A stretch of DNA of 64,000 nt from Elmis aenea. Taxonomy: Eukaryota; Arthropoda; Insecta; Coleoptera; Elmidae. Below are positions 29,462 to 58,634 of this stretch, piece by piece. The stretch spans positions 48,460,966-48,524,965 of the forward strand of contig OX393576.1 of assembly GCA_947652605.1 (NCBI GenBank), read 5' to 3'. The translations under genes and the position numbers were made by a program. Below the pieces are notes generated by a model that was given only the letters and a program-made list of their open reading frames with translations, made no database searches and had not been told where the DNA came from. Each line of letters begins with the position of its first letter. The stretch's first letter is position 1.

Positions 29462-30012
29462 TACAGGGTGTGCCAGATAACATTTCCAGCATGGGCATCT
29501 CGCTCTCGCTTATCATAGGAGATACAGGTTAGTTCAAATTGGATGAATTACTTTTTAGTTTGAGAGAAGCTACAATCAATTCTACAAAATTGCTTGTACT
29601 TCAGATGTTAAAGCAAAAAAAAAAAGAAAATGTCGATTTTCTTTTTTCTCTCATAACTTTCTTGTCTAAACCATTAAATCAATCTTATTGGTAGCTTCTG
29701 AAGGTATTTTATTATGTAGAATGTAACTATTATCTTAGATTTTTGTTATCACTTTTAAATTACTTTATTTTTTGTTATGATATTTCAAGTTGGCTTTGCA
29801 ATAGTTAAATGTGCTTTTTTTCTCCTCTTCCTAATGATATGTCACTTGTCATACATGTTTAAATAAATATATTATTAGAAAGAGGACAAAAAAGCACATT
29901 TCACTATTGCTAAGCTAACTTGCCTGTTTGACATGTTAGGTACGTGGTTAACTTAGAATAATATTAGTAAAATACGGTTTTTCTTGATTTTCCAAGTTAT
30001 TTATTTAAATAC

Positions 30013-31340
30013 ATACAACAAAAGATATATATTCTGAAGCCAACTTCACTGTTTAACATGTTTCATGGCGACCTAGCGCAAATATTACCAATGCCAAAAT
30101 TAATCGCAAAAAAACTAAGTTCGGCCGCAGGAATGTTTATATGGGCTGGGAATCTGACCAGAATTGCCAGAGAAACGTTAATTCTACCAAAAAATAAAGG
30201 AGGTATAGGACTTATGGATCCACTAACTAAAGCTAATTGCCTGCTCATAAAACGAACCTTAGAGGTTCCTGCTTCAAAGACCTTCTTACGGGATTATGTA
30301 GGTACCACTGTGTTGGAAAATCCTCCAAATTTAGTTGCTATACCCCATCAAGCACCACAATATCGTAGGATTCTGCAAGATGCAGCTTATTGCTACGGTG
30401 AAGACTTTTACAATACCAAAATGAAAATTACGTATAAAAATATCGTAAAACGTGGAAAATCGCCAAAAATCACGCAAAAATTTCCTCATGTGCTATGGAA
30501 TAACGTATGGTCGAACATAAATAACAAAAGTTTTACGTATGAACAAAAGTCTAACTGGTTAAAAATTGTACACAATGCTGTGATTACAAACGAGTACCTA
30601 TTTAAAATAAAATTAAGTACAACAGATATGTGTAGCAACTGCAACAACGTCATCGACACCATTTTCCATAGGCAACAATGTTTTTTGGGCCTTGGAAAAA
30701 TGTGGAGCTATTGCTCAGCTTTAAGTAAAAAAATATGCAACAAAAGTTTAACAAGTGAAGAAGCAATATTTCCTGGCTTCATGTTTAAAAACGAAAAGGC
30801 TAACAATGCCATAATCTGGATAATTTCTCATTACATAGAAAAACTAACAGAACCTAGTTATGACTTTAGCGATTTTGTGGAAACGCTAAAGTACAAATAC
30901 AATGGTCTCCGAGAGAACTACAAATTGAAAGTATTTGGCACCTTTTTAGCACGACTAGCCGTGAATTAGATCTCCTGGTTTTACCTAAGATAAACTTTGA
31001 AAATAACCCACCAAGAAGCAGCAACATTAAAAAATATATTACTACATGTCCAGATTAGTCGGGCGGTCTTGTGGACCGGAATTGAGTCAGTTATGTGGAG
31101 GTCAAGACCCTGTCTACAAAAAAGCTTAAAAAAAAAAAAAATTGTTTTTTTCTTTTTTGTGTTCGATCTTGAATAATGTTATGTATGATACTTTCTAAGA
31201 ACCATGTTGATATAGATACCAATTATTTAATATTTAATATCATGTCAAATAATTTTGTACAGGTAAATTTAAAATAATGTTAGGTTTTATTAGGTAATGT
31301 ATTATTTTAATGATTGAATAAATGTAGTCTATAAAAAAAA
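30013..31340 (+). mobile_element. 5'-truncated LINE (non-LTR retrotransposon)
   Basis: It carries the 3' part of a retrotransposon reading frame, a 3' untranslated region of about 370 bp, an AATAAA at about 31317 and a terminal run of A at about 31332-31341. The 5' side begins inside the ORF, a typical 5' truncation by incomplete reverse transcription. The open frame is intact, so the insertion is fairly recent compared with other relics here. A clear target duplication was not found. Confidence 0.85.
30058..30969 (+). pseudogene. LINE ORF2 C-terminal region with zf-RVT domain
   Basis: An uninterrupted frame of 303 codons, the longest in the window. It has the segment after the polymerase fingers and palm of LINE proteins: QILPMPKLIAKKL, FIWAGNLTRIARETLILPKN and KGGIGLMDPLTKAN (residues about 8-61). 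A zf-RVT region follows: LWNNVW at about 146-151, then a CX2C...HX3C cluster with Cys192, Cys195, His204 and Cys208. The reverse-transcriptase catalytic region (YxDD) and endonuclease lie upstream in a complete element and are absent. In-frame codons extend upstream of 30058 to about 30028, so the ATG is not a genuine start. It may belong to a LINE lineage with a zf-RVT tail; I do not assign a clade. Confidence 0.85.
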
Positions 31341-31789
31341 AATGGCTTACTTAAAATAATAATAATAAAATACAATTTTTTTTGACCTTCTAAGTCATGT
31401 GCGCAGTTATAGATATGATATATCGTTATAAAGAGGTAAAAAAAGCCATTTAATTATTCCAAAGCTAACTTGACGGCCCACCAGAAAAAAGAAGTTAGGG
31501 TCAATATCTCTAAAATAAAAAGTGATAAAAAAAACTTAGATAACAGTTATATTCTACATAAAAATTAAGATTCAGAAGGTAAAAAGGAGAGAAAAAAGAA
31601 ATTCGGCATTTTCAATTTTTTTGCTATAACATCTGAAGTACGACGAATTTTGTCCTTTTAAAATTTGATTGTTGTTGTTGTCATACTAAAGAATAATTCA
31701 TCTAAACCTGTATCTCTTATAATAAGCGTGATCTGGGACACCTAGTGCGTATTTCCTATATTTATGCTTTATTATTCAAAATAGAAAAA

Positions 31790-32330
31790 TAGTTTCAAAA
31801 CAAAACTTGTTGGAGATCATGTCCTTTTAAGCTTAAACTGCTTTTAGCTATACCGAGTGTTTAGTTGCTGCGCACCGATAAGTAACTTTTTTACTTTAAA
31901 TACAACATCCTGCATATTTTTCATTTTTTAAATTCCAATTTAAATTCTCTTCCAAAAATTTACAAAGTGTTTTGTACTTAAAATTATTAGTTTTCGAGTT
32001 ATTTACGTTTTTTCGAAAATTTTGCCATATCCAAATCTGAAACAAAATGTTTTTATTTAGCGATTTAATTATACTAGTATAAAATAATTTGGGGGTTTCG
32101 TTAACAATACTTATAGTGCCTTCTAAATAATTAAACTTCTAAAATAATACATAGGGTGTTTGTTTTTGTAGGTCCTCTTAGCTGAATTTTAAACACGAAT
32201 ATGTCAATCTTTTTAAAGAATCACACTGTATTTTTTTTTGGTAGATAATTTAATTGTCTTTAAAAAACGTTCAAGGCGTTTCGTGTTTAAAATTGGAATT
32301 TAAAAAAAGATGTCCTCGAAATTCTTTATC
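31790..32330. repeat. decayed repeat related to the 40.1-kb and 3.9-kb palindromes
   Basis: Ordered matches to 3953-4390: a box like gtgtttagttgctgcgcacc, acaacatcctgcatatttttc, aaattctcttccaaaaatttacaaagtgtttt and gagttatttacgttttttcg followed by aaaattttgcca. A second partial copy follows at about 32150-32300 (tagggtgtttgtttttgtag ... taatttaattgtctttaaaa). No clean ends. Confidence 0.6.
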
Positions 32331-32639
32331 ACACGATACATAATTTAAATTTGTTTACCCAAAAATTTGTTTATGATATTAGCAAACATAAGACGGTTTT
32401 TAAGCTTGTTAAAAAAAGTAAAATGTAGTTTAAAAAAATTGGCCCTATAATGAAAAATTAACCCCAGGGTAAAAAAATTAAATTGTAGTAATAATAATAA
32501 GAATAACTGAAAGTTTCTGTTCAAATATAATTTTTTGTTAATAGAATTAAAATTACAAGAACCGAGATGAAATTTTGAGAAAAAGCTATGAAGGGGGCAG
32601 ATTAGCAACGAAGAATAAGAGAAAAAAGAGATGAACTTA

Positions 32640-32765
32640 ATTACATCCAAGAAAAAATATTGACCTTGTATTGGCATAGACAGATTAGCATGCGTCACCG
32701 AATGGAGTCCTACAAAAAGAAGTAAAAGAAGCAGAACTGCTAAACAATTTTTAAAATGTAATAAT
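32640..32765 (+). pseudogene. LINE C-terminal tail fragment
   Basis: The plus strand reads GIDRLACVTEWSPTKRSKRS followed by RTAKQF, which matches the conserved tail of RTE-like insect retrotransposons (normally 'GHxARxxDxRWTKxVTEWxPxxxKRxRGRPxxRW'). The opposite strand is open for 160 codons (32345-32827) but gives a low-complexity Leu/Phe-rich product that I regard as a by-product. Adjacent AT-rich DNA is not coding. Confidence 0.65.
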
Positions 32766-33734
32766 ACCCACCTAACATAATTTAAATAAGAATTGCAGCC
32801 ATCTACATATTTCGAAGTATACACCAAAAGTTTATTTCATAAAATAAAAACGTTATGAGGCTGTTGGAAACGCTTTATGCTGGATAATTCATTTCATACA
32901 ATTTTCATAAAATTATCGGTGTTAAATACAGTCGCGTTGATACTCGATTTTAATAACTATATTTTCCGTAAATCTATCATTATTAAATGAAATAAAATAC
33001 TATTTTCCCAGAAGAAATCTGTCAATAAACAAAAGTTACATTTAATATTTTACCAAAAGAAAAAATTATATTACACCACAAAAACGCCTTATAGTTTATA
33101 AATATATCTGGATATTTTTAAAATTTACTATAAGTGATATGCTAGTAAAACTTTTGAAAAAAAAATCCTTGATCTTCTAGAACTTTGCGTACAAACTTTA
33201 AACAAAATACATTACCTATTAAATGTTTACCATTTTATGTCGAGCTCTTATTATAATTGGATATTGGATTGCATAAAATAGGAAATAATAAAGTGCAGTT
33301 ATTTATGAGACGCCTCGGAAAAGTAAAATAGTGTACTTGTAAAACTCGGTGCCAAAAAGATGGATGTTTGAACTTGCATCTTGAACCTCCGAGGAAATAA
33401 ATTTAGCTTGAAGATGAATAGCTCCGTGGGCGTTCGGGTTTGGCGGGCTGTCTTTTATCAGGGTTGAAGATTTCTCAATTTGCCACCGCGTATTCATCAC
33501 TATTTCTGCTACTTATTTAAAGCTCTCCGTATAAACTTCGATTTAGTCATGTTGTTTGTTGCAGTATTTGACAATTATTAAAACTAAACTCATATTATTG
33601 TAAAACAGACAAGCGTAAAGTTATTATTAACAATACATTTTAACTGATTCTGTCATTACTAAAAGCAGAACTTAATTTTAATAAGTTACGAAAAATAGCT
33701 TTGGATGTACTTATTAAAAATAAAGCATAGCAAG

Positions 33735-34430
33735 AAAAATAATACTAAAGGATTGGGAGACCTGTTACATTACCGATATTTAAGACTGCCGATAGAGAAA
33801 AAAGCGAAAATTATATAGACATATTACTTTTAAGTGTAGCAAAAAAATTATACAAAGAAGACTAAGCAAAAATTTTGAAAGAAATTTGGGAAAGGCTTTG
33901 GACTGGGTAAGAAGCACGCAGTGAAAAAACGATGAAACTCTTAACGACGCTGTACTTGTATTTTACTGATTTAATTAAAGACTTTGATGGAGTGCCAAGA
34001 GAAAAGATTTGGTAGATATTGAGGGAAAGTTAGGTGGGTGAAGGATTATTAGCACCAATTAAGAGTTTATGTAAAAGTTGGACATTATGTGCCTCCAAAA
34101 ATGTAAAACAACATGGGGGCACTTTTAAGTCCACCGTTTTGTATAACTCTAATAGATAAAATTATTAAGAAGTTTAAAAAAGCATTAAGAATGCCTACGG
34201 GGGTAAAATAAACTAAAACCAATATATTTAACAGAAGTGGCCTTTGCAGATGATGCGGTTTTATTAGCTAAAAACGAATGTAACCTGGGGGTATTGGTAG
34301 ATATATTAAAGAGATAGAATAGGAGCAAAAACAAAGGAGGGAGTCTGTATCACACTGACGCAGTAGATGAGATTTTTGAGAAGCATTAAAGGTTAAAGAC
34401 TAGTTAATTGATAAGATTAGTCTACAAAAA
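33735..34430 (+). pseudogene. RTE-like LINE reverse transcriptase relic
   Basis: Across shifting frames the plus strand gives an RT domain in order: an unclear 'WR...YI' start, a KALDWVRSTQ-type piece, then DFDGVPREKIW (second RT block, normally DFxKAFDxVPRxxLW). Next comes an IKLLRSLKKH-like helix and the catalytic block LTEVAFADDAVLLAKNECNL with FADD at 34243-34254. Numerous stops show it is dead. The LxxIEVAFADDxVLLA wording is typical of RTE-type insect LINEs. It is not continuous with the 32.6-kb tail fragment, which would lie downstream in an intact copy. Confidence 0.8.
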
Positions 34431-34684
34431 AACTACGACCAACAACACTGTGCTACATTTTAGCAAAATGTCATAGTTCAAAAAATGTCATAAATTAACT
34501 CCTACGACGTCGTATACCTATGGTTGTATTTAGCGAAATAAAATAAACCATAAAAGCTTTCTCTAGCAATAAAAAATCAATAAAAAACATTTTAAAATTA
34601 AACTGTTTTCATACAAACAGTGCAATGTATTTTGCGATTAAAATTTAATACTGCGAGAACAAAAAATAAGTTTCTAGCTAACTC

Positions 34685-35258: not shown

Positions 35259-36771
35259 CAGGGTGGTGCTTTTTTCGATGCTCACCATTGCTATCTTGGA
35301 AACGGTAAGAGATACAAGGTCGGTTAAATTAGAGAAAAGTTGCACATTTTTATGGCGATTAAGAATCTGAAAAGAAATCCTGGATATTTTGATTCATTTT
35401 TGATTTATTACAAAAAAACTGAAAAATGTGATTTTAGAAAAATATTATTATCTTACCTACCATTGACGCTATTTCATTTAAACTTGGTAACTTTATGTTT
35501 TTGACCGTCCTGGGTTTGATGACGTCAACAGAAATTTTCTAAGCCTTCTAGATTTCAAGTTGCGATAGTCAACTTTTTTATTTCTTATGGCCGCCATATT
35601 GGATTTTTATACCATCAGACAGACAAAAAAATTAGCTTTTCAGATTATTAACAAAAATACCTTTTTTCTTTCAAAAAACTTGTTGAAATTTGAAAATTTG
35701 CTTAAATAATCTATAAAATCGTGAATGTTCTGAAAAACAATTGAAATTATAATATAAATAAAAGTGACACAACATTTTATAGGTCTAATAAAATAACGAA
35801 ATGACAATACATTTAAAACACCATAAAAATTATTATTTAAATTGTTTAAAGTGCGCGCCGTTATGTATGATGTAGTGGTTAGTCCTCAAATTAATTTCGT
35901 CCACTGCCTTTAGGATGGTTTGTCTCCAAATAGGTCGAAAGCATTTTTGATTTTACGGCGAAGAAGTTCAATATTTTCCGTTAGGGTTGCATAAACAACA
36001 TCAATGTAAAAGTAATCCATAGGCGTTAAACATGGCGATCGCGGAGGCCAATGAACAGGACCAAACGTACCAAATCATGAATTTTGAAAGCGTACATCTA
36101 AATTAATATCCTTTTACAATGCGGGCGTTGTGAGGACCAGCTTTCTTGCTGAAACTACTGATGATTTTGAATTGTTACTAATGGCAATTCGCCTAACATA
36201 TCCTCTAAATATGTTTCCAACAATCTTAATTTCGTTATCATTAGACCAATAAAATGTTCTGTAGCTTTTATTTATATCATAGTTTCAATTGTTTTTCAGA
36301 GCATTCTCGATTTTATGAATTATTTACACAAATTTTAAAATTTCAACAAGTTTTTTGAAAGAAAAAAGGTATGTTGGTTACCAATCTAAAAAGCTAATTT
36401 TTTTGTCTGTCTGATGGTGTAAAAATCCAATATGGCGGCCATAAGAAATAAAAAAGTTGACTATCGCAACTTGAAATCTAGAAGGCTTAGAAAATTTCTG
36501 TTGACGTCATCAAACCCAGGACGGTCAAAAACATAAAGTTACCAAGTTTAAATGAAATAGCGTCAATGGTAGGGAAGATAATAATATTTTTCTAAAATCA
36601 CATTTTTCAGTTTTTTTTGTAATAAATCAAAAATGAATCAAAGTATCCAGGATTTCTTTTCAGATTCTCAATCGCCATGAAAATGTGCAACTTTTCTCTA
36701 ATTTAAACGACCTTGTATCTCTTACCGTTTCCAAGATAGCAATGGTGAGCATCGAAAAAAGCACCACCCTG
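35259..36771. mobile_element. long palindromic TA|CAGGGTG element with transposase remnant in the loop
   Basis: TA flanks at 35257-35258 and 36772-36773. Ends are CAGGGTGGTGCTTTTTTCGA on both sides in inverse. Arms of about 540 bp (35259-35803 and 36236-36771) are nearly identical inverted copies. They include the subterminal TATCTTGGAAACGGTAAGAG mini-hairpin, a GGTTAAATTAGAGAAAAG tract and an internal ATGGCCGCCATA palindrome. The 430-bp loop carries a transposase end on the minus strand. Confidence 0.93.
35842..36235 (-). pseudogene. Tc1/mariner-like (DUF4817-type) transposase C-terminus
   Basis: The minus strand reads RFGTFGPVHWPPRSPCLTPM and DYFYIDVVYATLTENIELLR, then RRKIKNAFDLFGDKP. After a frameshift it reads ILKAVDEINLRTNHYIIHNG and AHFKQFK with a stop. 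This is the C-terminal third of the IS630/Tc1/mariner-type transposases common in insects, in which 'HWPxRSPDLTPxDFFLWG' carries the last catalytic acid and the protein ends '...NGGHFEHLL'. Here the Asp is replaced by Cys (SPCL), so it would be inactive even without the frameshift. It lies in the loop of the palindrome and reads toward its left arm. Confidence 0.88.
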
Positions 36772-38547: not shown

Positions 38548-38549
38548 TA

Positions 38550-40108
38550 CAGGGTGCCCATTTTTCTAACCTGTTGTATGGGTAACTCCGTTAATATTGG
38601 AGATACAGAAACGTTTAAATTAGCAAATTTGTGCAGAATTTAAAGGGAAATCTGATGCCATTTTCAAATTTGACCTACGTCATCAACTTTTTGAAATATT
38701 TTGAAAAAATTGAAAAAGGTCGATTTTTTCAAACTTGAATAATTCCGTAACCATATGAGTTAGAACAAAAATACAAATTGGCTTTTATAGATATTTTTAC
38801 GTAGATTTTAAATATGTTAACGAAATTTTCATAGCACTCTCGATTTCCGAGTTATAGCACAAACTTGCATTTTTTTAATTGGAAGTCATAGTTGGCTGTG
38901 GTCTTATTAAAAAAGTTATTTTTTTCTCGTTTCAATGATATAAGGTTTGTTATGCTTTACTCTTGTAATTTTTCTTTAAATAAGCAAAAATCATTTTACA
39001 TGTCCACAGCCTACTAATAGATGGGAGTTATCCCGTGTTGATGTTCTTTTTTTTCGATGTGACATTTAAGAGTTGTCTCTTATTGTTAGTGTAGCAGTTA
39101 TTAGCCAGTTACAAATTTTAAAAACAAAACTTCATAGTTTGTCAAATAAAATTAATTGTTTGTTATACGTATGTCCCTCTCTCGTGTTGATCAAAATTTT
39201 TGTTTATTATAAATTTCAAAAACAATGTTTTTTAATGAAGAAATATTATCAGGCTTTTTGGTATACCCGTATTTTTTTAAATTGGTTTCTAATAACGAAA
39301 ATAATTTCATTCTTGGTTGGCTCCTTTCCATAAATCTTTGCAAATACATTTCACTTGAATTTCTACTATTTCTATTACAAGCGTAGTAATAGAAAAGCAT
39401 GTGTTTTTTTTCTTCATTCGAACACATTGTTTTTAAAATTTACAATAAACTCAATCAAAAATTTTGATCAAAACGAGAGAGAGATTTATATGTACAACAA
39501 ACAATAAATTATATTTGACAAACTCTGAGGTTTTGTTTTTAAAATTTGTAACTGGCTAATAACTGCTACACTAACAATAAGAGACAACTCTTAAATGTCA
39601 CATCGAAAAAAAAGAACATCAACACGGGATAACTCCCATTTATTAGTAGGCTGTGAACATGTAAAATGATTTTTGCTTATTTAAAGAAAAACTACAAGAG
39701 TAAAGCATAACAAACCTTATATCATTGAAACGAGAAAAAAATAACCTTTTTAATAAGACCACAGCCAACTATGACTTTTAATTAAAAAAATGCAAGTTTG
39801 TGCTATAACTCGGAAATCGAGAGTGCTATGAAAATTTCGTTAACATATTTAAAATCTACGTAAAAATATCTATAAAAGCCAATTTTTATTTTTATTCTCT
39901 CATATGGTTACGGAATTATTCAAGTTTGAAAAAGTCGACCTTTTTTAGTTTTTTCAAAATATTTCAAAAAGTTAATGACGTAGGTCAAATTTGAAAATGG
40001 CATCAGATTTCCCTTTAAATTCTGCACAAATTTGCTAATTTAAACGTTTCTGTATCTCCAATATTAACGGAGTTACCCATACAACAGGTTAGAAAAATGG
40101 GCACCCTG
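38550..40108. mobile_element. long palindromic TA|CAGGGTG element with duplicated transposase start
   Basis: TA flanks at 38548-38549 and 40109-40110. Ends are CAGGGTGCCCATTTTTCTAA in inverse. Arms of about 680 bp run from 38550 to about 39240 and from about 39420 to 40108 and are nearly identical. The mini-hairpin ACTCCGTTAATATTGGAGAT lies about 35 bp from each end. Each arm reaches a start codon at the loop: ATG at 39224 (plus) and at 39427 (minus). The element abuts the next one at 40113 through back-to-back TA dinucleotides. Confidence 0.95.
39224..39427 (-). pseudogene. N-terminal DUF4817-like helix-turn-helix fragment of a transposase
   Basis: The minus strand from 39427 reads MCSNEEKKHMLFYYYACNRN and then SRNSSEMYLQRFMERSQPRM. 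This matches the opening of the insect Tc1/mariner-like transposases with a DUF4817-type helix-turn-helix ('MYTNEExxDMLxxYGxxxxNxxxAxxxYxxRFPxRxxP'). On the opposite arm the plus strand from 39224 starts MFFNEEILS, the same beginning in degenerate form. The frame then runs into arm sequence and is not a protein. This ties the palindrome to a transposase-bearing parent whose 5' end was duplicated in inverse. Confidence 0.8.
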
Positions 40109-40112
40109 TATA

Positions 40113-40863
40113 CAGGGTGTCCCAGCCAAGACGAATTATTCGATAGCTCTGTTAAGTTATAAGTAATAATATTAAAAAAAAGGTAAATATAAAAGTTGAT
40201 TGTAATGATTTACTACATACAAATAGTTTTGCATTTTCAAAGGCTACTACCGATATTTTAGGTAAAATACTCGCAAATAATCATAAGAAACGAAATAACT
40301 TCAAAAATATTATATTTAGCCATAACTTTGAAAGATAATTAAATTTTAAAAATTTATAGGGTGTTCATTTAAAAAAAAAAGATTTATATGCGTTTAAAGT
40401 TTAGCGAAATGGACCGAGTATAACGAACACCCTGTATATTATTTTAAAAATGTAACTAGTCAACAATCACTATGACTCTATTGGCTAATAAATTACAAGA
40501 GTAAATTGCTCTGGTGTTGTTATGTTAATAAATATAAATATTTTTATAAAGGTCTGCATGTCAAAATTTTGAAAAGAACGTTAATAACTCAAAAACGGTT
40601 TATTTTAGACGTAAACAACTTATAATATTTTTGAAATAAAATTTAATTTTACATCCAAAAATTACAAAATATACAGGGTGCATTATATAAAAAAAAACAA
40701 TGTTTAGTATCAGAGCGCAAAAACAAAACACTGTGTATAGTTGAAAATAATTTAAGGTTATGTAGTAAATGACTACAAACAACTTTTATATTTAACTTTT
40801 TTTTATATTATTAGATACTAATAACAGAGCTATCGAATAATTCGTATTGACTGGGACACCCTG
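40113..40863. mobile_element. TA|CAGGGTG element with short arms
   Basis: TA flanks (40111-40112 and 40864-40865). Ends are CAGGGTGTCCCAGCCAAGAC and, reversed, CAGGGTGTCCCAGTCAATAC. Arms pair for about 105 bp (…attattcgatagctctgtta…) and then differ. Internal pieces tagggtgttcattt and gaacaccctgtata near 40363-40437 form a nested short inverted pair, and the right half contains a further acagggtgcattatat. Related decayed copies are at 3953 and 31790. Confidence 0.9.
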
Positions 40864-41414
40864 TATAGTGTATACATATTTTATATTTAAAACATTAATA
40901 AAATTAACTGTACTTTCAGAAGACAACAATAAGCGCACCTCCTATACCTCAACGCATATAAACACTGAGACGCGTCTGCAAATGCAGTCGTAGCACTATG
41001 AGTAGAGTTTTTATTTCGAAAGTAGGGGTTGTTAACAAATGCTGTTTAAAAAGATATACGGACAGTACTTCGTGTTTACATAGAATATTCAAGGACAGTC
41101 AATGTATATCGACATATATCTAAACGCAAAACATGACTGCAAACACATGGATTGATTTACTCTGACTGTACCTATATGCAGACGTGTCCTAGTTTTTCAC
41201 TCCAAAATTACTGCATATGCAGCCTTTGTTCGCAAAGGTGTTAATAGCTGTAGGTAACATTTTTAACCTGAAGAGAAAAGTTTCATCAAAACATGTGTTC
41301 AAAGAGTTCGCTATAATTAAATAAGAAAAAGAAATGAAACTCGAGCATCAAAGTGTAATGAAATTACTCTGAAAAGAGAGCAATGGGCATAAACTAAAAA
41401 TATGTTTTAAAAAA

Positions 41415-42130
41415 AATTAAGATTTATCTGTCAGATCGGCGAATGAAGTTGTCTTTCATTGCCAGGAAAGTTGGGGTATCCGAAAGAACTATTTGGAAAG
41501 TTTTGCACGACGAATTGGATATGAAGAAAGGGTCTGCGCGTTGAATTCCAAGGCTCCTTACGCCAGAGCCAAAACTTGTCAGGAAAGAAATTTTCCAAGA
41601 AAATATTGTCGTTTCAAAGGCTGAAAAGAGCTTTTTTTTCACAAATGTTTACCGGGGATGAAACGGGTGTATAACTGGAATAATTTAACCAAACAAAAAT
41701 CTATGCAGTGTGTTTAAGAAGGTTCGCCTCCCCCTCCCCAAAAAAAAACACTGTCTTTGGCCAGAAAACTAATGGCAAACTATTTCTTGGGATGAGGACG
41801 AAGTGCTGCTTATAAAAAAAAATTAAAAAAGCTACTACAATCACCGGGGACGTCTAATTACCTAAAGACGATTCAAAGTTTGAAAGAAGCGTTGAATTTG
41901 AATCGACCTTCAACGTGGCGGTATCGTGCAAGACAATTGCAGGGTCTATAAAGCACGCAATGTTCAGGCTGTAATTCAAGAATGTGAATTTTCTGTGCTG
42001 CATCATCCACCTTGCGGCCCTGACTTAGCACCCTGCGAATTCTTTTTGTTCATTCGTGCTTTAATTTATAGCAAGGAAGATTACATAAAAAACGCCCTCG
42101 TTCCCCATCCATTAAGTCATAGTTTACCAA
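41415..42130 (+). pseudogene. mariner transposase relic
   Basis: Plus-strand frames give LSDRRMKLSFIARKVGVSER and TIWKVLHDELDMKKGSAR (helix-turn-helix), IPRLLTPEPKL and GDETGVYNWNNLTKQKSMQC (first catalytic Asp). Next come GSPPPPQK and a garbled middle with an FLGMRTK-like piece in place of the FWD block. The end reads QDNCRVYKARNVQAVIQECE and LHHPPCGPDLAPCEFFLFI with the second and third acidic residues. It covers most of a mariner protein but has stops and frameshifts. It differs from the 1.8-kb mariner and resembles the mellifera or rosa-like group. No terminal repeats were recognised. Confidence 0.88.
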
Positions 42131-42140
42131 AAGCACCATG

Positions 42141-43219: not shown

Positions 43220-45175
43220 TAGCAAAAACATTCTATAATTTTCAATTTCTAAGTTATTAGCAAAAAAACTGTTTTTATGAGGATTATTAATAGGTTTTTT
43301 AAATAGAAATTGATGGTAATAAAAGAAAAAATAATTCGCTCGCCGTTAAAGTTGTGACACAACCAAACCTTTTCTTAAATGGAAGCAATAGTTGGCTATG
43401 ACCTATTTAAATTTCTTAATTTTTCCCTATTCCTAGTATATACCTATAAGCGTTAATAAATTTAAATTCAATAATAAGGAAGTAACAAAGGTTTTTAAAA
43501 GATAAACGTAGATAAAAACAAAAAGTAAGCAATGGAAGCAAAAAAATAAACAATGTTTAAACAAAAGATGAACAATAATATAGTCAGAATCAGCAGTTAT
43601 GTAAAAATATATGAAAACGATTTAATTGTAAGAATGGACTCTAACGCAAAAATGAATTGCAAACCGAACTAACCATAAACGGCAAAACTAAATCCCTTTT
43701 AAATAGTCGTTGAGATGTTGTACCACATAAGTTATATTAGATTTTACACTTACTTTTACTTTTTTTTTGTTTTTACCTGTTTATCTTACAAAAAATAATT
43801 ATTAAAAACCTTTGTAACTTGCGTATTAATGAAAATAAATATATCAACCTTAAATATTGGAAATAAGAAAAAATATAGAATTTTAATAGGTCATAGCCAA
43901 CTATATCTTCCACTTAAAAAATGCTATTATTATTACCTATTATTATTATTTCCGCGGAGATGGTCCCCTTTCGGGTTCCTGTACTGCGACATATTGGTCT
44001 ATTATACCCTCTGGTTATAGCCCCTTAAAGAAGTCCTGTGTTTTTGAAAAACTCCAGGATTTTCTTTAAGGGTGTTTTTCTTAACTCTTCTTCGTTGGCT
44101 TTTTCCATTCCTAGAAGTCTAAGCCGATAGGGTGTGAATCCTTCACCCTGGCATATTACGTGAAGAGGAGTTTCTTCTTCTTCACCACATCCTCTAAAAT
44201 ATATTGGTCTCTGAGAGCCTTTTTATGTAGAAGTGTTTGCTTAGCCCACAGTGTCCGGTGACGAGTCCTGTGGCTGCTCTGATGTCTGCTCTGCTCATCC
44301 TGGGCATTTCTTCTGTCTTTTTTTTAGAGACCATCGACAGGATAGCCTTGGAATGGGCTTGTCCTGCAACTTTTTTCCAATGAGCATTATGCCCTTGTAT
44401 TAATATGTCATTAAGACACCGCTTGGCTGTTCCATAGGATGTACCAACTGCGGGTTTGGTCCGAAGAAAGGTGTCTCGCTGCCAATTTTGGCTAGGCCTT
44501 CTCGTTCCCTGGTATATTAGTGTGCCCTGGGCACCATACCAGTTTAAGATTATTCCTGCTCCCTAGCACCTTGAGTGCTCGTATGCAGTTCAGAGTCCTG
44601 AGTTTACTTCCGACAAGCCAAGCGCTTTTAACGCTGCTTGGCTGTCGGACTATGAAGATTCTTTTATTATTAAAATCTCTTTCTGATACTTAGTGTTTCT
44701 GCACATAAGTGCATAGCGTACACCTCAGCTTGAAATATGGTTGCACACTGTCCAAGGCTTATAGATTTGCCTTGTCTCAGTTGTGCTGCTCTCCATATTC
44801 CGCAGCCTGTTCCAATTTGACCCGTCCGTATACCAGACCAGGCCATTAAAAATGCTAGGTTTCTGTCATAACTTTATAACGGCGAGCGTGATATTACTTT
44901 TAAGTACCATCCAGGTCTACATAAATATATCTAAAAATAATCGTAATAAATTTTTTCGATATGTATAACAATAAGGGAGATATAACACAATATATTTGTG
45001 ACAAGAAAACAGTTTCTCGCCAATAACTCAAAAACCGAAAATGATAGAATATTTTTGAACACGGTTCTAAATTTGTCTCAAAAAACTGCAGATTTTTAAT
45101 AATTTAACTGTTTTTTTTTTATCTTGCCTATTAAGCGAGATACCCATGTAATCCCATCAAATTTGGACCACCCTG
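43220..45175. mobile_element. palindromic CAGGGTG element interrupted by a LINE
   Basis: Right end, reversed from 45175, is CAGGGTGGTCCAAATTTGAT, then TA. The left terminus has decayed and pairing begins around 43227 (aaaacattctataattttca against the inverse at about 45010-45055). Further inward both arms carry tcgctcgccgttaaagtt, ggaagcaatagttggctatg and aacaaaggtttttaa blocks. It is the same family as the element at 53591. A LINE lies in the right arm at 43927-44846; removing it restores arm continuity. Confidence 0.85.
43927..44846 (-). mobile_element. LINE 3' fragment with RNase H, with target duplication
   Basis: The insertion is flanked by TTAAAAAATGCTA (43914-43926) and TTAAAAATGCTA (44847-44858), differing by one A. 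On the minus strand it encodes an RNase H domain: VWYTDGS, GIWRAAQLRQGKSISLGQCA, TIFQAEVYAMHLCAETL and VWCPGHTNIPGNEKA. A cysteine tail with GCGEEEETPLHVICQGEG and FTPYRLRLLGMEKAN follows. Its 3' end is a run of TAA triplets (seen on plus as tta repeats at about 43926-43950), a typical ending of I-like LINEs. It is 5'-truncated and has several frameshifts. Confidence 0.92.
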
Positions 45176-45177
45176 TA

Positions 45178-46628
45178 CAGCTGTTAATTCATTGATTTAT
45201 TTTGAATATTGTTTTTCATAAAACTTAACTAATAATGACGAAACAGGTATACTGTTATTATTTATGGACGTTTAGAACAGGATCATTATACTATTTGTTT
45301 TCTTTGGCTGTACACCGACTAAGCAACTGTGTTGCATGCAATTCTTTATGGTAATCGTTGGTGTATGTATTTAGTAGAAATAGTATTTACGGTAATTTGA
45401 TACAGGGTAGCTAATAACTTTTTCAAGTTTTTATTAAATTTTCACGTTATTTTTAATCTTGCGATTTCATCTACGATTACATAATTGGTTTCAAAGGTAC
45501 ATTTTCGATGTTTTCAACGCATAAGTGTACTGAATAGCATTGCATGATTAATAGTCCACAGTTTTTATTGTTCAAGTTAATTGGCTCATACGTTTTATTC
45601 TGGTATAATTTATTTGAAATACAATATGGTTGACGGTAAAATTTCCTGTAGAAATGTATGGATTTTCAAAAAATCTTTAAGTGGAAGTAAATAAACTTTT
45701 GCAAAATTGTAAGTAACATGGCTGGTAGAAAACTGGTTGCGGTTTGACACGGTTGCGTATATTTTATTAAGAATCTCACCTGTCGCAGTTCGTTTGGCTG
45801 TTCCCAAGCCGAAGCAACGGATGTCGTGTCTGTCTCGCGCGGTGACGGGTAATTATACGTTGACAGTGACATAGTGTGCGGCTCGCTTGTGCATTTTTAA
45901 AACTCCCAACTCACTGCCTCATCACGCTTCTGTTACACAGGGAGATACGAAGGAGAAAAAATCAAGATTTAACGAACGCGGCTACTGGAAGTAATGTCAC
46001 TCGCCACTCAAAGATAATGCAATTCTGTAAATTCAATAAGCCATTTTGGCAAATCTTTTCATAAATTTTTGTGAAATAAAGTTTATTTACAAATAACAAA
46101 TCCAAAAACATGATTTTTGAATTGATAGTAAAGACGACATACTTTTAAGTGTTGCAGAATTTCTGACACCGTATCGGTAAATGTTGAAAATTGAAATGGA
46201 CAATTTAGCCATGCCATATCAATACCAAAGACAGGTTTATAGATTAGCCACTTTAAGCCACGTCGAGGACAAAAGACAAGTCAGCAAATCAACATAAATA
46301 TAGTCTGCTGAAAGTTATGCGACGTCGCAGCTGTCGCTAGTATCAACTGTCAGTGGCGTCGCGGTGCTTGGTGACTTATGGCTCTCTTCGCTTTTAGTGT
46401 CGTAGCAATGTCACCACACATTGAGATCTATTACACGGCATTTTTACAAACATGTTAGCTACAATGTAGACATTCTGACGTTAAAAGCCGCATTCCTTTC
46501 TCAAGAAAACGGACATTTTTGTGTTGGTGTTTTGTGGGTCACTCAGATTTTCTCCGTTTAAGTGGAGATGCAGTTATATCACAATTTAAAACACAATGGC
46601 TTAGAGAATGTTGAAAACTACAAAATAG
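45178..46628. other. gene-poor stretch with a lone CAGGGTA end and a GC-richer island
   Basis: A TA|CAGGGTAGCTAATAACTTT end occurs at about 45402 without a visible partner. About 45770-46470 is GC-richer and complex, with no protein similarity I recognise; it may be conserved non-coding DNA. Confidence 0.4.
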
Positions 46629-47218: not shown

Positions 47219-47222
47219 TTAA

Positions 47223-48009: not shown

Positions 48010-48696
48010 TAGGGTTGCCAGATTTCTTGGTCGTCAAACCGGGACAATAAAAAAAAGAGGAATAGATAGAATTCGTTTATTGATAAATATACAGGGTGTG
48101 TATAAATTGGCGGAACCGCTACACGTGGCGATGTTCTTCGTAAAATTCCAAGTCGAAAATCTTAATACAAAAATGTTGTACCAATGTTGAGGCCATAGGA
48201 AGCATGGTGCAATATTTTTGTATTAAGTTTTTCGACTTATTGTTAGAATTTTACGAAGAACATCGTCACGTGTAGCGCTTCCGCCAATTTATACACACCC
48301 TGTATATGTATAAGGAATATATACAACAAAAGTCACAGAAATGATCTCACAAATCTTACATTTTTGCAGAAGGTTTTATTTTCAATTCAGCCTTTTCTTA
48401 ATAAAAAGATATTTTTCGCTATATTTGTCGGAAAATTTGCTCTTTTTCTTCGGCATTTTGGACAGGCCAAGAGTCCTGAGAGTTGTGAGGTGTGATCATG
48501 GAGCTGGGCGTAAAAATACCGAACAAGGTCGAGACACGCCGAAGGTGGCCGCTACCGGTTTGACAACGCCAAACGTAAGAATCGAAAAAGCGATAAACCG
48601 GGATATTTGAACGTCCCGAAAGATCTAGCCGGGACACCGGGACTTGGGACTCAAAATCGGGACAATCCCGATTAATCGGGACACCTGGCAACCCTA
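48010..48696. mobile_element. hAT MITE with perfect 8-bp target duplication
   Basis: The flanks are gttatagc on both sides (48002-48009 and 48697-48704). Ends are TAGGGTTGCCAGATTTCTTG and, reversed, TAGGGTTGCCAGGTGTCCCG. CGGGAC/GTCCCG motifs cluster near both ends. A short palindromic TA element is nested at 48092-48302. The interior frames (48341-48691) are not recognisable proteins. Confidence 0.93.
48092..48302. mobile_element. short palindromic TA|CAGGGTG element nested in the hAT MITE
   Basis: TA at 48090-48091 and 48303-48304. Ends are CAGGGTGTGTATAAATTGGC in inverse. The arms pair almost fully along about 100 bp each (aattggcggaacc.., gatgttcttcgtaaaatt, aatacaaaaatgttg), making the whole 211 bp a hairpin with a very small loop. 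Confidence 0.95.
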
Positions 48697-48704
48697 GTTA
48701 TAGC

Positions 48705-51380: not shown

Positions 51381-51384
51381 TATA

Positions 51385-51989: not shown

Positions 51990-53480
51990 AACGATATTAT
52001 TCTACAGCTAAGTGTTTAGTATATTTGATATCTATACAACAAATAGGTACAACATCTAAAAGTGATCGTAAACAAATTATTTCGCTAACCGAAACAAAAA
52101 ATTATCTGTTTCGCAACAAAAATTGTTTACCGAAAAAATTTTGTATTCAATCGAAATAAAATTCAAATTACCGTTATTAGGAAAACCGGATCAATTTAGT
52201 TTTATTTTTTTTTTGTTTAAAAATTGCTTGTTGCAAAATGTAAATCCACGCCACTTACATCGTCGTCATCTGACCTACCTTTGCATAATTCGGTGTTGTA
52301 AAATCCCAGTGGGAAATATCAAGCTAATCTGTTTACAAGTAACCTGGACTTTCCCAATTTTGCACCAATAATATCCAACAAAACAATATTTTACCTACCA
52401 TTAAAATAGTTGTGAACATCCTCATTTTACACAGTTGATATCTCAAAGCAGTTGCGCTAATGACTTTATCAAAATTGTTATCTTGTTCAACCACCATATG
52501 CTTTTATTATCATAAATATGTAGTTAATTACCTTGGTTGATATATGGTAGATGATCTAAATAACCGTGAATGACTTGTACTTTTAGTCAAAAATTAAAAC
52601 ATTACATATGATTAAATCGCATGACTTGATGGCAAGATAGCAGGGAAAAGAGGGTCGAGTTCAGGAGCGGTCAGATCCAGTCTCAACGCGAGGAAGACAT
52701 AACATTAACACAACATGACATGAGAGCGCCTCATTTGATGAGATCAAAGCGACCGCTAGATGTGTTGGGCGTCGTCTCTCCCCGCTTATCTTGATGCAAA
52801 CCAACTGACAGCTAAGCTAAACATAACCACCATATGCAACTTGTCAATCTAAGTTAGCGCCTTTATTTTTATTAGCGGCTAGTGTCTGTCAACAAACTTT
52901 GAAGGGAAATTTATTTGCACATTTTGAAATTAAATAAATAAATTGGAATGCTGTGATGAAAATAGGTTGATATATGGGCACATTACGATGATTTATTGAA
53001 GTGTGTAGAGGAAGCATTAATTTTTTTAGAGATAAACTTTAATTAAACCATTAATTATACTTAATTACGCTGCTTTTCATATAAGTACACGAGATTATTA
53101 TGTTGATCTAAACAAATAACAACCTTGGATTAAAAATTATATATGTTATATACCAAGGACTACTAAAAATACCATAGCAGATCAGCACAACATATTTGGA
53201 GTGTTACAATTTCTTAAAGCAATAAATACAAGCAGATTGTCAAATAATATAATTGATTTATCATAGATTTTCATTTCCATAAAATACCAGGTGTCCCTAA
53301 TTGGAGTCTCAACATCAAGATTTTTGTTATCTTAAGAGCTAAAACGTCGATTAAATTGTGACAAAGTTGCGAATTTGGTGTGAATCACTTTAAAATAATG
53401 ATTACCTACTGCACAAAATTAACAAATCACTGTCACTTTAGCAACATGTGCCGTAATTTTAAGATGACTGCACTCAGGGC
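51990..53480. other. gene-poor stretch with a lone element end
   Basis: A GC-richer block at about 52610-52900 has no recognisable coding content. At 53288 the sequence ACCAGGTGTCCCTAATTGGA, followed by a TTGTTATCTTAAGAGCTAAA segment, looks like a lone end of the CAGGGTG group. The rest is AT-rich, with CGAAACAAAAA-like variants around 52090-52150. Confidence 0.4.
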
Positions 53481-53491
53481 ACGATCTAGCT

Positions 53492-54562
53492 CAGGGGTTC
53501 CCAACCTTATTGTGGCGCGGGCGCAATCGCGATTGAGAAAAATAGTGGCGGGCGCAAGTCGGATTTAATAAAATAATGAAATATTATGTACAGGGTGGTT
53601 CAAATTCGATAGGATTGCATGTGTATCTCGCTTAATAGGCAAGATAGAGAAACGGTTAAATTACCAAGAATATGAAGTTTCTTAGGACAAACTCAGAACC
53701 GTTTTCAAAAATATTTTATCATTTCCGGTTTTGAAGTTATTTGAAAAAAACTGTTTTTTTGTTATATTTATAATGTGTCATATCTCTCTTATTGTTGTAA
53801 GTATCGAAAAAGATTATGAAGATTATTTTTAGATGTTTAAATGTAGATTTTGAAATTATTTAAAAAATAAATTGCACTCGCCGGTAAAAAGTTATGACAC
53901 AAACTTACCTTTTTTTAAAAGGAAGCTGTAGTTGGCTATAAGGCTATAACCTATTTAAATTACTTATTTGTTTCCCATTCCAAATATATAAGGGTTGATG
54001 TTTTTATTTTCAATAATACGAAGGTTTTTAAATTTAAAAAAAATGAAAAACAAAAAGTAGCCTGTGAAAACAAAAAAAAATCAAGAAAAACAGGAAATAG
54101 GATATATTTGCAACTGTTCTGAGTTTGTCCCAAAAAACTGCACATTTTTGGTAATTTAAACGTTTCTCTATCTTGACTATTAAGCGAGATGCCCATGTAA
54201 TCCCATCGAATTTGGACCACCTTGTACATACTGGCGGTATATCGGGTGATCGAAAATCATTAATGCCCGCTAACATCGGCCCGAAAAAAAAAACAACCAA
54301 GTTTATGTTGGTATCGTAGTTTAAAACTAGGATATCAATGTCGTAGTATTACAGGTGGAGATGGACTGCGGTCAGTGTTGCCAATTTAGCGAATTTTTCG
54401 CTAAATCTAGCGAGATTTTAAAAACTAAAACAACTTTTTATTTCCTTACTTTTAAGACTTTATTGTTATTTTTTTCTCGTTATTTGAACACTTTATAGGG
54501 GGCGCATGCAAATAGCTCCGCGGGCGTACGTGCGCCCGCGGGCACAGGGTTGGGAATCCCTG
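53492..54562. mobile_element. hAT element with perfect 8-bp target duplication
   Basis: Flanks are atctagct at 53484-53491 and 54563-54570. Ends are CAGGGGTTCCCAACCTTATT and, reversed, CAGGGATTCCCAACCCTGTG. GC-rich GCGGGCGCA repeats sit near both ends. The palindromic element at 53591-54224 is nested in it. A further hAT-like end (CAGTGTTGCCAATTTAGCGA at about 54374) lies inside and may be another nested fragment. No transposase is visible. Confidence 0.95.
53591..54224. mobile_element. TA|CAGGGTG element nested in the hAT, asymmetric palindrome
   Basis: TA at 53589-53590 and 54225-54226. Ends are CAGGGTGGTTCAAATTCGAT and, reversed, CAAGGTGGTCCAAATTCGAT. The arms pair for about 140 bp, including the TATCTCGCTTAATAGGCAAG mini-hairpin and AGAAACGGTTAAATTACC tract. 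Beyond that the left half keeps a longer arm (tcgccggtaaaaagttatga, ggaagctgtagttggctata) shared with the 43.2-kb element, while the right arm is deleted. Confidence 0.92.
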
Positions 54563-54599
54563 ATCTAGCTCTTTCGCCGCTGTGGGCAAAAATGATCTT

Positions 54600-55175
54600 T
54601 GTCACCCTTTTTTGGCCGGCCGGCCCTTTCGCACTTTGGCCGAGAGGTGTGGCCAAGTTCCGATTTAACAGTGTATATGCTACTTTGGCCGGTTATTTCG
54701 CGAAGTGGCTGGAAATCCCTGGCCAAAATTCGATGTGCTGATGCAATACTGTCCGGTAGGTGACACATCTTTCGTCTCCGGTGTGCTACAATGCTAGAAT
54801 CACAAATACCATTTGTTTTCTTCAAAATCAAACTTTAACCGACCTTAAACCTGACCGTCACTCATTTCATTAGTAAAAGAAGGTTAGAGGTCTGTTAAAG
54901 CTTTTTTTTAAGCAAAAAACATTTGGGTAATAGGTATGGTAATTGCCGCGACAATGTTAAAATCCCAAATACCGTTTGTTTCACCAAAATCTGCTCTTGA
55001 CTTTTTTCTTCCACCGTTGGCCGATCGCTCCATGCCATTTCGCAAACTGGCCGGCCAAATCCCGAAAATCCCGAAAAGATCGGACATTGGCCAGTCAATT
55101 ACCAGCGACATTGGCCATTTCTCGAATTGGCCGGACACTTCCTACTTTGGCCGATTTCGGGATTTGGCCGTAACA
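54600..55175. repeat. TTGGCCG-dense sequence with an internal direct repeat
   Basis: TTGGCC or its complement occurs more than ten times, clustered at 54610-54730 and 55015-55172. Between the clusters a segment of about 45 bp (caatgctagaatcacaaata..., about 54789 and 54951) is directly repeated at a spacing of about 162 bp with some changes. Overlapping frames are open but the translations are only the motif repeated. Likely a non-autonomous element with many subterminal binding repeats. Class and ends are unknown. Confidence 0.65.
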
Positions 55176-55314
55176 TAATATATCTAATAACAAATAAATA
55201 TTTTAAAATACAATTTTTGACAGCGAGTGAAATTTTTGGTAGGTATTTATTAAATAACAAAAGCATTTTCTTTTATGAAAAATGTAACATTTATTAAAAA
55301 TAAAATTTAAAAAA

Positions 55315-55575
55315 ATCTAACTTTTTTCTCGGCAAACTCCTTTATAATTTCTTTAAAATATATTTTATCACATAACTCGTGTTCTATAACAATCATAGTC
55401 AATTCACTTTAGTTTGTTTTGTGTCATGGTGGGCCTTCAGTAATCTTTAATTATTTTTAATTCGGAAAAACTTCTTTCACCACTAGCAACTATCACAGAT
55501 AAAGTTAACAGAATTGTGAGAGCAATATTTATGTTTGATAGGTACAAAATTTAATTCTGTGTAAAGTTTGGAAAG
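55315..55575 (-). pseudogene. hAT transposase dimerisation-domain relic
   Basis: The minus strand reads YLSNINIALTILLTLSVIVA and then SGERSFSELKIIKDY, a stop, RPTMTQNKLN and VIEHELCDKIYFKEIIKEFA with frameshifts. This is the hAT C-terminal dimerisation block ('YPNIxIALxILLTxPVxVASxERSFSKLKLIKxYLRSTMxQxRL'). Upstream sequence to about 55700 is too decayed to read. It is a separate relic from the one at 186-957. Confidence 0.85.
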
Positions 55576-55704
55576 TCCCGAAGAGACAAATTTTTATCTT
55601 AAAGTGTACAAAGGACTGACAACTCATCTGCAAGATCTAATCCCTTTACAGAACTTTAGAGAAGCTGTTATGCCACATATCAAAATATTTGTAAAACGTA
55701 GTAA

Positions 55705-56955
55705 TATCTGTTAGAAAATTGCGATGAAAATAAATTTCAAAGTAGAATGATTTACTCCAAACTCGTCATAAACGCTTTGCCATTAAAAAACTATCATTGT
55801 ACGTACTCAGTAAGTTAATTTTAATTTTCTCTTTCTACCAATTTTTCTGCCTCCCAGTTTGTCGCTCTGGACAGTTGTCCTGTTCGCGTCTCCCTAGATT
55901 GGGCCCTAATTGCAGTAACCCAAAATTGAGGCCTTTAGTGTTGAATAACATCTTTATCGATCGAGAGGAGTGTTGTGATGTCCAGCAATCCTCAATATTT
56001 TATTGGTTTGTGTTTGTTCACTTCAAGATCTGATAACTGCACAAAAATTCTTTGTTAGTATAGAAATACGGTTCACTCGGTGTGCACTCGCTTTAAGGCG
56101 TTGCCATAAAGAAATGTTTTCTGCTTCATGAAATCAAATTCTTTTTGATTTTATCATGATGAGTGCATGGTTTAATTTAATATCATGCCATAATTATATT
56201 TGTTATAATAACATGTATTAATATTTTTTGTTTTAACTTATTTGTCCCTAGCATATATTTATTTAACTACAAATATGCATGTACATTATCGAAATGTCAA
56301 ATAAACGTCTGTTCATATTGCCATCTCGTTACACATGCAGTAATTATTAATTAAAATGTAAATTAATTCTTTCTGTATCTAGTCAACGATCTGAAAAGCC
56401 TCGGATTATTTATAATACAAATTTGGAAATCGAAACCAATGAATCAAGGCTTGGCTAGCACCGATTAATACACTCATAAAACAACTCATAAAATTTAATG
56501 GTCATAAAATCGGAGAAATATTTTCTTGTTTAAAATAACTCACAAATGGATTGCTTTCTAAGTTTTAAGTTTGTAAATAATTATAAACTTATATACAATC
56601 TGAGCCCGGAATATTACCGGACCCACCGGAAAATTTTGTTAACTCCAAATCTCTTGATAAGATATGGAGCATCGAATATGCTAAATTTGAATTATTAGAA
56701 CTACGGATAGGTAGATAATTTTGAGAAAGTAAATGTACCTATATGTTACCGTTAATATTTTATAAAATGCCTAATTTAAATAGACTGGGCTTAAACATAA
56801 AATATATAATAATTCACAATTAAACGGTTTATGGCATTAATTCCGTTTCTATCTAATTAAATTATTATTATCCAACACGGCTAGCGTTGGTGGACTTAAG
56901 TGGGCGCTCGGCTTTAGAAAACAATTATGTTATTAAGTTATCAAAAAGTTTATAA
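55705..56955. other. mostly AT-rich sequence
   Basis: A frame at 55797-56033 contains a Cys-rich-looking stretch, but I recognise no protein in it. The remainder has no visible features. Confidence 0.4.
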
Positions 56956-56958
56956 ATA

Positions 56959-58634
56959 CAGGGTGTCCCCGTTAATACCGCAAATATTTTAAGTGGTAAT
57001 ACAGAACCTTTTTCTAAGAAAAAATTTCAAGTACAATTTTTTTCTAAAATCAAATGCTAAGCAGATATCAACACTTACTTGATTTTTGCATTTAAATGAC
57101 TCTGTCGCCGAAAATATCAATTTTATCGTAAAATACCTTTCAGCTTTTTAATAGAACATGAAATTTTCTACAAAATTGGTTATAATTATTTTTTATCTAC
57201 AGGCAATGGTTTAAAAGTTATAAAGCAGTTTGCACACAAAAATGTGAAAAATTTAAAAACTTTAATTGCTTCTTTGACTTTGCAACCGCTGTATCTTTAA
57301 AACGGAAGGTTGTACAAAAAAACCGACGGCCCATTCCGGATAGCAAATTTTATGGGCTACAACTTTGGTCAGGTGAAATTTTTGGAAAATCAAACCGATT
57401 TTTCGGAAAAGTCGAAAATAAGGAACGGAGTGCAAAAAACAATTCCTAGAAATATTGTTTTGTATTTAAAAATGCTTTTAAAGAGAGTGCGATTATGTAA
57501 TTGAAAATGGTCATTTTAAACACTTATTGAAGTAATTTGGTGGTTATATGTTAATTTTTTTGTGTTAAGATGGATTTGCATTGTTTTACATTTTATCGTT
57601 TTCGAGAAAAAAAATCCGAGGAATAATGATATTTTGTATTTAAAAATGCCATAGCATCGGCACCATTCATAAAATTGTGTATCTAATCAGTTTCAAAGCT
57701 TTTTTTTTTTTAACTTTGAAATTCTTCAGAAAACCACCCCTTATCATTTTTTTAAGGAGCTAACGAACAAATTTAACAAAAAATTGTAAAATTGCATGTA
57801 AATAAGTTATGTAAATTTTTAAAAACGCCGCATCTTTTTAACGAAACGTCGTAGAGCAAAACGGATGCCTATTGCGGATAAGGCATTTGACTGACTACAA
57901 CTTCGGTAAATATGTTGTTTAATAAAACAAAATATATCATAGAAATGTTTATAATAGTGAAGGAGGTGAAAAAAAAAACGATAAAATGCAAAACCATGCA
58001 AATCCATCTTGACGCATGAAATTGTAACATGTAACCACAAAATTACTTCAATAAGTGTTCAAAATTATCTCCATCATTTTCAGTTCATAATCGCACTCTC
58101 TTTAAAAGCATTTTTAAATACAAAACATTATTTCTCGGAATTTCATTTTTACACTCTGTTCCTTATTTTCAGCTTTTCCGAAAAATCGGTTTGATTTTCC
58201 AAAAATTTCACTTGACCAAAGTTGTAGCCCATAAAATTTGCTATCCGTAATGGGCCGTCGTTTTTTGTACAACCTTTCGTTTTAAAGATATAGCGGTTGC
58301 AAAGTCAAAGTAACAATTACAGTTTTTAAATTTTTCACATTTTTTTTATAGAAACTGCCTTATAACTTTTAAACCATTGCCTGTAGATAAAAAATAATTA
58401 TAACCAATTTTGTAGAGAATATCATGTTCTATTAAAAAGCTTTGAGGTATTTTACGATAAAATTGACATTTTTGGCGATAGAGCCTTTTAAATGCAGAAG
58501 TGTAAAAAAATCAAGTAAGTGTTGATATCTGCTTAGCATTTGATTTAAGAAAAAAATTGTACTTGCATTTTTTTCTTAGAAAAAGGTTCTCTATCACTAC
58601 TTAAAATATTTGCGGTGATAGCGGGGACACCCTA
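56959..58634. mobile_element. long palindromic TA|CAGGGTG element with duplicated transposase end
   Basis: TA at 56957-56958 and 58635-58636. Ends are CAGGGTGTCCCCGTTAATAC and, reversed, TAGGGTGTCCCCGCTATCAC. The arms are about 690 bp long (56959-57655 and 57925-58634) and closely similar. In both arms, reading inward, the end of a transposase is visible with its stop. The loop contains a diverged direct relative of an arm segment (cgccgcatctttttaacgaa against cgctgtatctttaaaacgga). Confidence 0.93.
57468..57528 (+). pseudogene. last codons of a Tc1/mariner-like transposase, left arm
   Basis: The plus strand reads LLKRVRLC then, with a one-base shift, IENGHFKHLLK and a stop, matching the typical end 'xRVxLCIExNGGHFEHLL' of DUF4817-type Tc1/mariner transposases. 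The mirror copy on the minus strand of the right arm (about 58095-58050) reads, after a frame correction, DGDNFEHLLK and a stop at the same place. Having the stop in both arms shows that the 3' end of the gene was duplicated in inverse. Confidence 0.75.

Follow-up and report, generated by a model that had tools for sequence, protein, structure and literature searches.

The window analyzed here is a 64,000-nucleotide stretch of the genome of Elmis aenea (Coleoptera; Elmidae; GenBank assembly GCA_947652605.1, contig OX393576.1, positions 48,460,966 to 48,524,965), and it holds LINE-like (long interspersed nuclear element) and mariner remnants together with a set of inverted-repeat elements whose ends read CAGGGTG beside a TA dinucleotide. 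In the original prediction, nine such elements, referred to by their first position, were described as palindromes of unrelated-looking arm sequence that share one subterminal plan, in which the tip is followed by a mini-hairpin and then by a short tract. Inserts included, these nine elements make up about 17% of the window. Our results suggest that five families, A to E, are probably decayed, non-autonomous elements of the IS630-Tc1-mariner group with long terminal inverted repeats (TIRs), which would share one ancestor and carry at their ends a tip and a subterminal transposase-binding module.

The window is AT-rich throughout, with a guanine-plus-cytosine (GC) content of 28 to 36% per 4-kb step, and has the character of insect-like animal DNA. 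CAGGGTG occurs in it 18 times against 1.64 ± 1.22 expected from 100 shuffles. TA, which is probably the duplicated target site, adjoins 16 of the 18 exact sites; the two without it (42035 and 44150) were excluded from later counts. Another 11 ends with one mismatch were collected among TA-adjoining sites only. Inverted arms, located by self-comparison of the window sequence, lie about where the original prediction had placed them, and with the tip excess and the TA flanks they partly bear out the nine elements; several ends are worn or variant. Element 9106-9342, predicted as a full palindrome, ends in CAAGGTG and CATGGTG and retains only about 34 bp of arm on its right side (by eye). There is no CAGGGTG at 43220, the sole intact end of that element being 45175; element 29464 has a worn right end without the tip sequence; and the supposed lone end at 45402 reads CAGGGTA (at 45403) and is without the plan. 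We named the families A (9106 and 29464), B (35259), C (38550), D (43220, with its end at 45175, and 53591), E (5190), F (56959), G (28533 and 53288), H (40113), I (4124), J (45403), and K (48092).

Arms trimmed of their first 25 bp were compared in 120 pairs, each set against 100 shuffles, and the 29 comparisons with z above 2.5 were reported. All ten pairs among families A to E are found there, with best z values over member pairs from 3.8 (A-B and B-E) to 20.8 (C-D), and an alignment of ten arm sequences of 190 to 520 bp from the five families is collinear over about 400 bp in the long arms. A profile of the first 95 bp of the ends, tip included, was rebuilt with each family omitted in turn and recovered the omitted family each time (E = 7.8e-7 to 1.5e-12), the best match in five shuffled windows being 0.52; the full profile also recovers the end at 53288, which lay outside the training set (E = 4.6e-6). 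The shared plan is well supported in this respect, while the arms of these five families are not unrelated: judged by their sequences, A to E are diverged homologues whose similarity extends well past the ends. On present evidence families F and K fall outside this group, and the position of H, which is related to family I (z = 6.1), is doubtful.

How far the plan reaches was assessed by scoring the module in register, without the tip and with the own family omitted where one exists, at 28 ends (27 TA-flanked ends and 53288). Ten ends pass at p ≤ 2/2000, and three are weak (40113, 18/2000; 9342, 37/2000; 53288, 43/2000). At the remaining 15, p is 98/2000 (28533) or higher; elements 56959 and 48092 belong here with their two ends each, as does 40113 with its right end (439/2000). 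The plan, which had been described for several of the families, is present in six of the nine elements (9106, 29464, 35259, 38550, the right end of 43220, and 53591) but weak in 40113 and absent from 48092 and 56959. Deep in the family F arms, at positions 335 and 346 (including 57292-57316), there is a stretch TATCTTTAAAACGGAAGGTTGTACA that resembles the outer module of family B; it is not the top-scoring stretch in those arms.

Conservation along the arms, taken as mean pairwise identity among one representative of each of the five families (chance level 0.30), is uneven: it starts at 0.72 over the first 15 bp, falls to 0.40 over the following 15, rises to 0.62 at positions 30 to 75, and drops to 0.30 to 0.45 from 75 to 150. 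Past position 150, it lies mostly between 0.38 and 0.57, but identity reaches 0.70 in an A-rich stretch at 150-165 and 0.63 to 0.66 in two others rich in T or A (315-330 and 360-375). The tip and the outer module stand out, and a single architecture looks constrained, most simply by transposase binding. Transposase binding, one of the two functional constraints that the original prediction had suggested, is in keeping with these two peaks; a DNA fold, the other, finds no support (see below).

When the inner parts of the arms were scored with a matrix built from the outer modules, the best match fell at arm position 189 to 195 in families B, C, D (two arms), and E (Table 1). With the own family omitted from the matrix, the values from 400 shuffles are 0.002 for E, 0.002 for D(45175), 0.012 for C, and 0.007 for D(53591). 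The strongest likeness is in the first 10 bp, TATCTCnnTT, which agree at 8 to 9 of 10 positions in C, D, and E and at 6 of 10 in B. The distance from outer to inner copy is 157 bp in C and D(53591), 157 to 158 bp in B, 160 bp in D(45175), and 153 bp in E, and the alignment landmarks lie at positions 35/156/192 in B, C, and D(53591), 35/159/195 in D(45175), and 36/153/189 in E. An inverted copy of the module is also found in E at about position 402 (0/3000) and in the inner arm of element 43220 (3/3000); the match in D(53591) is weak (145/3000), and C has none by the same measure (756/3000). The stretches for this comparison were picked after the matches were known.

A further clue comes from the centre of element 35259, where a decayed piece on the minus strand, interrupted by a frame change, has an FQQ motif and, about 37 codons later, HWPPRSPCLTPMDYF; its stop codon, at 35833-35835, lies about 30 bp centre-ward of the inner edge of the left arm. 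Insect transposases of the same kind carry similar motifs. In a single comparison, this piece aligns with the third catalytic motif of the mariner remnant at 41902-42138 (E = 4e-4), and this remnant itself matches SETMAR (E = 0.0014) and Mos1 (E = 0.011), with a DDE_3 match below the curated cut-off. The mariner remnant (41398-42138 in full) was also considered as the source of the palindromes and rejected; it lies outside every palindrome, and no tie to them was found. In one paper, the label DD36D is applied to pogo-type families and a Tigger variant.

Table 1. Coordinates of the elements, modules, and coding remnants in the window
Feature	Position	Strand	Remarks
Family A copy	9106..9342	+	237 bp; module in left arm; right end is a tip of about 34 bp only
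Family A element	29464..31742	+	Arms of about 340 bp at 66% identity; worn right tip
Family B element	35259..36771	+	Arms of about 545 bp at 95% identity; central transposase-like remnant
Family C element	38550..40108	+	Arms about 695 bp, 95% alike
Family D element	43220..45175	-	Intact at the right end (45175), worn at the left; foreign coding-like insert around 43930-44870
Family D element	53591..54224	+	Arms about 145 bp, 84%; module at both ends
Family E lone left arm	5190..5640	+	Module copies: outer 5224, inner 5377, inverted 5614 (minus strand)
Family F element	56959..58634	+	Arms of about 650 bp at 89% identity; lacks the module in register
Family H element	40113..40863	+	Arms about 110 bp, 89%; weak module, left end only, arm position 33
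Family K element	48092..48302	.	211-bp near-complete palindrome, 83%; no module
Lone end CCAGGTG	53286..53375	+	Matches A-E end profile (E = 4.6e-6); stem shortened, GTCGATTAAATTG tract kept (by eye)
Outer module, family B left arm	35292..35316	+	Arm position 35
Outer module, family C left arm	38583..38607	+	Arm position 35
Outer module, family D	53624..53648	+	Arm position 35
Inner direct repeat, family C	38740..38764	+	Arm position 192; p = 5/5000
Inner direct repeat, family D (53591)	53781..53805	+	Arm position 192; p = 63/5000
Inner direct repeat, family D (45175 end)	44958..44982	-	Arm position 195; p = 3/5000
Inner direct repeat, family E	5377..5401	+	Arm position 189; p = 0/5000
Decayed transposase-like C-terminus	35836..36154	-	FQQ, with SPCLTPMDYF about 37 codons later; frame-shifted
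Decayed mariner transposase	41398-42138		SETMAR/Mos1 match at third catalytic motif; outside all palindromes

Taken as elements of the IS630-Tc1-mariner group, of which terminal inverted repeats are a trait that is present here, families A to E would descend from a single ancestral long-TIR element with a bipartite end, made up of the CAGGGTG tip, with cleavage at the TA, and the module, roughly TATCTCnnTTAnTA...GAGATAnAGnnnCGTTTAAATTA, at arm positions of about 30 to 75, which the transposase would recognize. The second TATCTCnnTT core, in the same orientation and about 157 bp further inward, may then have served as an inner binding site, as inner direct repeats do in inverted repeat-direct repeat (IR/DR) elements. 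We infer that autonomous long-TIR elements gave rise to the palindromes through internal deletions, possibly with inverted duplication; family B still has a gene remnant between its arms.

Several results weigh against this interpretation. All copies examined are non-autonomous and come from one 64-kb window, and some tip-less arm pairs outside A to E (E-H, z = 3.5; A-I and H-K, 3.3; A-K, 2.6) come close to the weakest A-E pairs, which are therefore not decisive by themselves. The transposase-like piece lacks the expected third acidic residue, has no Pfam or NCBIfam match, and has a sole match in PDB at chance level (E = 1.5); in a protein-database search, the two-piece query found no homologue and the padded query yielded one candidate, with none at E ≤ 0.01. 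As for the inner repeat, strong likeness is confined to about 10 bp, and the stretch that contains the repeat (positions 180 to 225) has an identity of 0.45 to 0.53, like its surroundings and with no conservation peak. In family B it is in register and not significant (left arm, 1595/5000), its best inner match shifting to position 94 once the own family is omitted from the matrix, and in family A the matrix scan found nothing in register (29464L, p = 0.893), the best inner match of 31742R (p = 0.010) lying out of register at 217. Moreover, the inner repeats of A to E are not independent tests, because the families share ancestry. The absence of a conservation peak in the inner stretch and of the repeat in family A weakens the proposed origin, which we still regard as probable, and also the more specific clade proposal given below.

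The mini-hairpin might instead be the functional unit, acting as a cruciform or single-strand fold that the transposase recognizes. Its six stem pairs (ATCTC/GAGAT and a flanking pair) in nine modules give 54 cells, of which 77.8% form a standard pair, compared with 20 to 56% when the stem is slid, and the outer modules retain 3 to 5 of 5 pairs. Such pairing would be expected of a recognized fold, but the compensatory changes by which the original prediction proposed to check it do not occur: none of the six pairs is changed on both sides among nine sequences from five families of this one window, and five of the six depart solely through broken cells, one of which, in 29464, stems from where its duplicated motif was cut. 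Nor is there an excess of DNA folding over the first 75 bp, where z ranges from -1.49 to 1.48 at 11 ends and from -0.26 to +1.38 at the six A-E ends. Of the five inner copies, four retain 3 of the 5 pairs and that of family C retains all 5, one of them G-T, and at 53288 and 28533 the loop is missing while the tract is kept (by eye). The two arms of 56959 do differ by a single double-sided change at another short stem, but 262 of 500 shuffles equal it. A folded unit is very unlikely in light of these results, and the stem may be no more than the trace of a protein site with dyad symmetry. Bigot 2005 reportedly treats, by its title, palindromic and mirror motifs in mariner inverted terminal repeats, i.e., short symmetric motifs in transposon ends. 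Shared ancestry alone, with a module under no present or past functional constraint, is another possible account of the plan, as the homology of A to E reaches well past the ends, so that resemblance requires no function, and the inner repeat forms no peak of conservation. What makes this unlikely is that conservation is high at the tip and at positions 30 to 75 and low between and just beyond them, and that the landmark positions are nearly fixed though the spacers diverge.

It is also conceivable that the long palindromes are kept because their transcripts form hairpin RNAs used by small-RNA pathways of the host, and arms of 545 to 695 bp at 95% identity would, on general grounds, give long duplexes if transcribed; this leaves the TA-flanked tips and the module unexplained, and we consider it extremely improbable. 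A Foldback or Mutator-like element (MULE) assignment was rejected, as neither the TA flanks nor the transposase motif fit the usual traits of those families. Finally, the nine elements may represent several transposon groups, with the CAGGGTG tip being a superfamily trait or the product of convergence. Elements 48092 and 56959, and mostly 40113, have no module and little arm similarity to A to E, and CAGGGTG tips also occur in the Rhodnius mariners Rpmar26 and Rpmar65 (PMC4678618). This holds at most for those three elements, the other six being one group; it is compatible with a mariner-type origin of A to E, and we regard it as rather doubtful.

A more specific proposal, which we offer tentatively and rate as possible rather than probable, is that these elements belong to an IR/DR-like clade in which the binding module is subterminal, not terminal. 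Each end would begin with a fixed tip, followed by unconstrained sequence of about 20 bp and a module of 45 bp. A second module core would lie about 157 bp (some 15 helical turns) inward, its distance kept constant although the spacer diverges, and a third, inverted copy, seen in family E and in one D copy, would lie about 400 bp from the tip. A similar end with two sites, at comparable spacing, is known from Sleeping Beauty.

None of the large, largely inverted elements 35259, 38550, and 56959 (1.5 to 1.7 kb) has an intact transposase frame. Of the nine open reading frames (ORFs) of at least 100 codons in the window, seven were scanned, and none of the seven matched a Pfam family at E ≤ 0.1. 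The ORF at 30058-30969 (303 codons), between the arms of 29464, has a weak zf-RVT match (E = 0.0092, below the curated cut-off) and is probably a LINE fragment; an A-rich run comes after it. The insert at 43930-44870 in element 43220-45175 is richer in GC and has broken coding-like frames (by eye), one of which was scanned without a Pfam match. Family H (40113) adjoins family C (40108) through a shared TATA, and one element appears to have inserted at a TA next to the other. Within 40113, there is a 78-bp TAGGGTG...CACCCTG unit at 40357-40434, and another repeat family has copies at 3993-4373, 31780-32265, and 40327-40809, of which the first two are 77% and 67% alike to the interior of 40113, in inverted orientation. 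Tracts rich in GATTCG/CGAATC (4890-5020 and 6020-6130) flank the lone family E arm on both sides (by eye).

The original prediction knew of no name for this group. While the layout and spacing of the module were not found in the open-licence literature searched, the kind of element is known: a report on the seed beetle Callosobruchus maculatus describes 13 consensus families of non-autonomous Tc1-Mariner elements, 654 to 2,199 bp long, with large TIRs and often fully inverted, and this large palindromic group makes up 5.2% of that genome (PMC10849321). Elements 35259, 38550, and 56959, being large, inverted, non-autonomous, and within 0.65 to 2.2 kb, resemble them by description. Bari elements have three 18-nucleotide direct repeats within the terminal 250 nucleotides of each end that are reported to interact with the transposase (PMC4877112), and share with the elements in this window long TIRs, directly repeated short motifs (significant here in families C, D, and E), and TA targets (putative here); in contrast, the first copy of the core in our elements begins some 35 bp from the tip and the second at about position 192, and binding of the transposase to them is predicted. 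In Rhodnius prolixus, Rpmar49, Rpmar17, and MITE_83.0 are recombined or deleted mariners and miniature inverted-repeat transposable elements (MITEs) with similarly unusually long TIRs made by one end replacing the other (PMC4678618). MITE_83.0, marked there as 'Tc1-like ?', starts with TACAGGGTGACC, and the 39 end bases given are too few to judge the module. Anopheles has 32 MITE-like clusters, of which six are palindromic (PMC3212995).

A pattern of tip, TATCTC, and GAGATA was found at 10 loci in viral_contigs and 26 in genome_contigs, none of the 36 having an inverted partner at element scale and two (L013 and L018) having a short local inverted repeat only, and we took all of them as chance matches. 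This pattern is stricter than the ends in the window (by eye, none of the ends inspected fits it exactly, and a still stricter form occurs there 0 times), which makes these scans low in power; two patterns that do fit window copies, one for family C and one for family D, found nothing in viral_contigs.

Our findings indicate that the pattern seen at these ends is real and had been over-read as a fold and as a set of unrelated families, and that the elements are mostly of an ordinary and abundant kind. With a shared, spaced module, such elements could be grouped by recognition site instead of arm sequence, and the lost transposase that mobilized them could be predicted.

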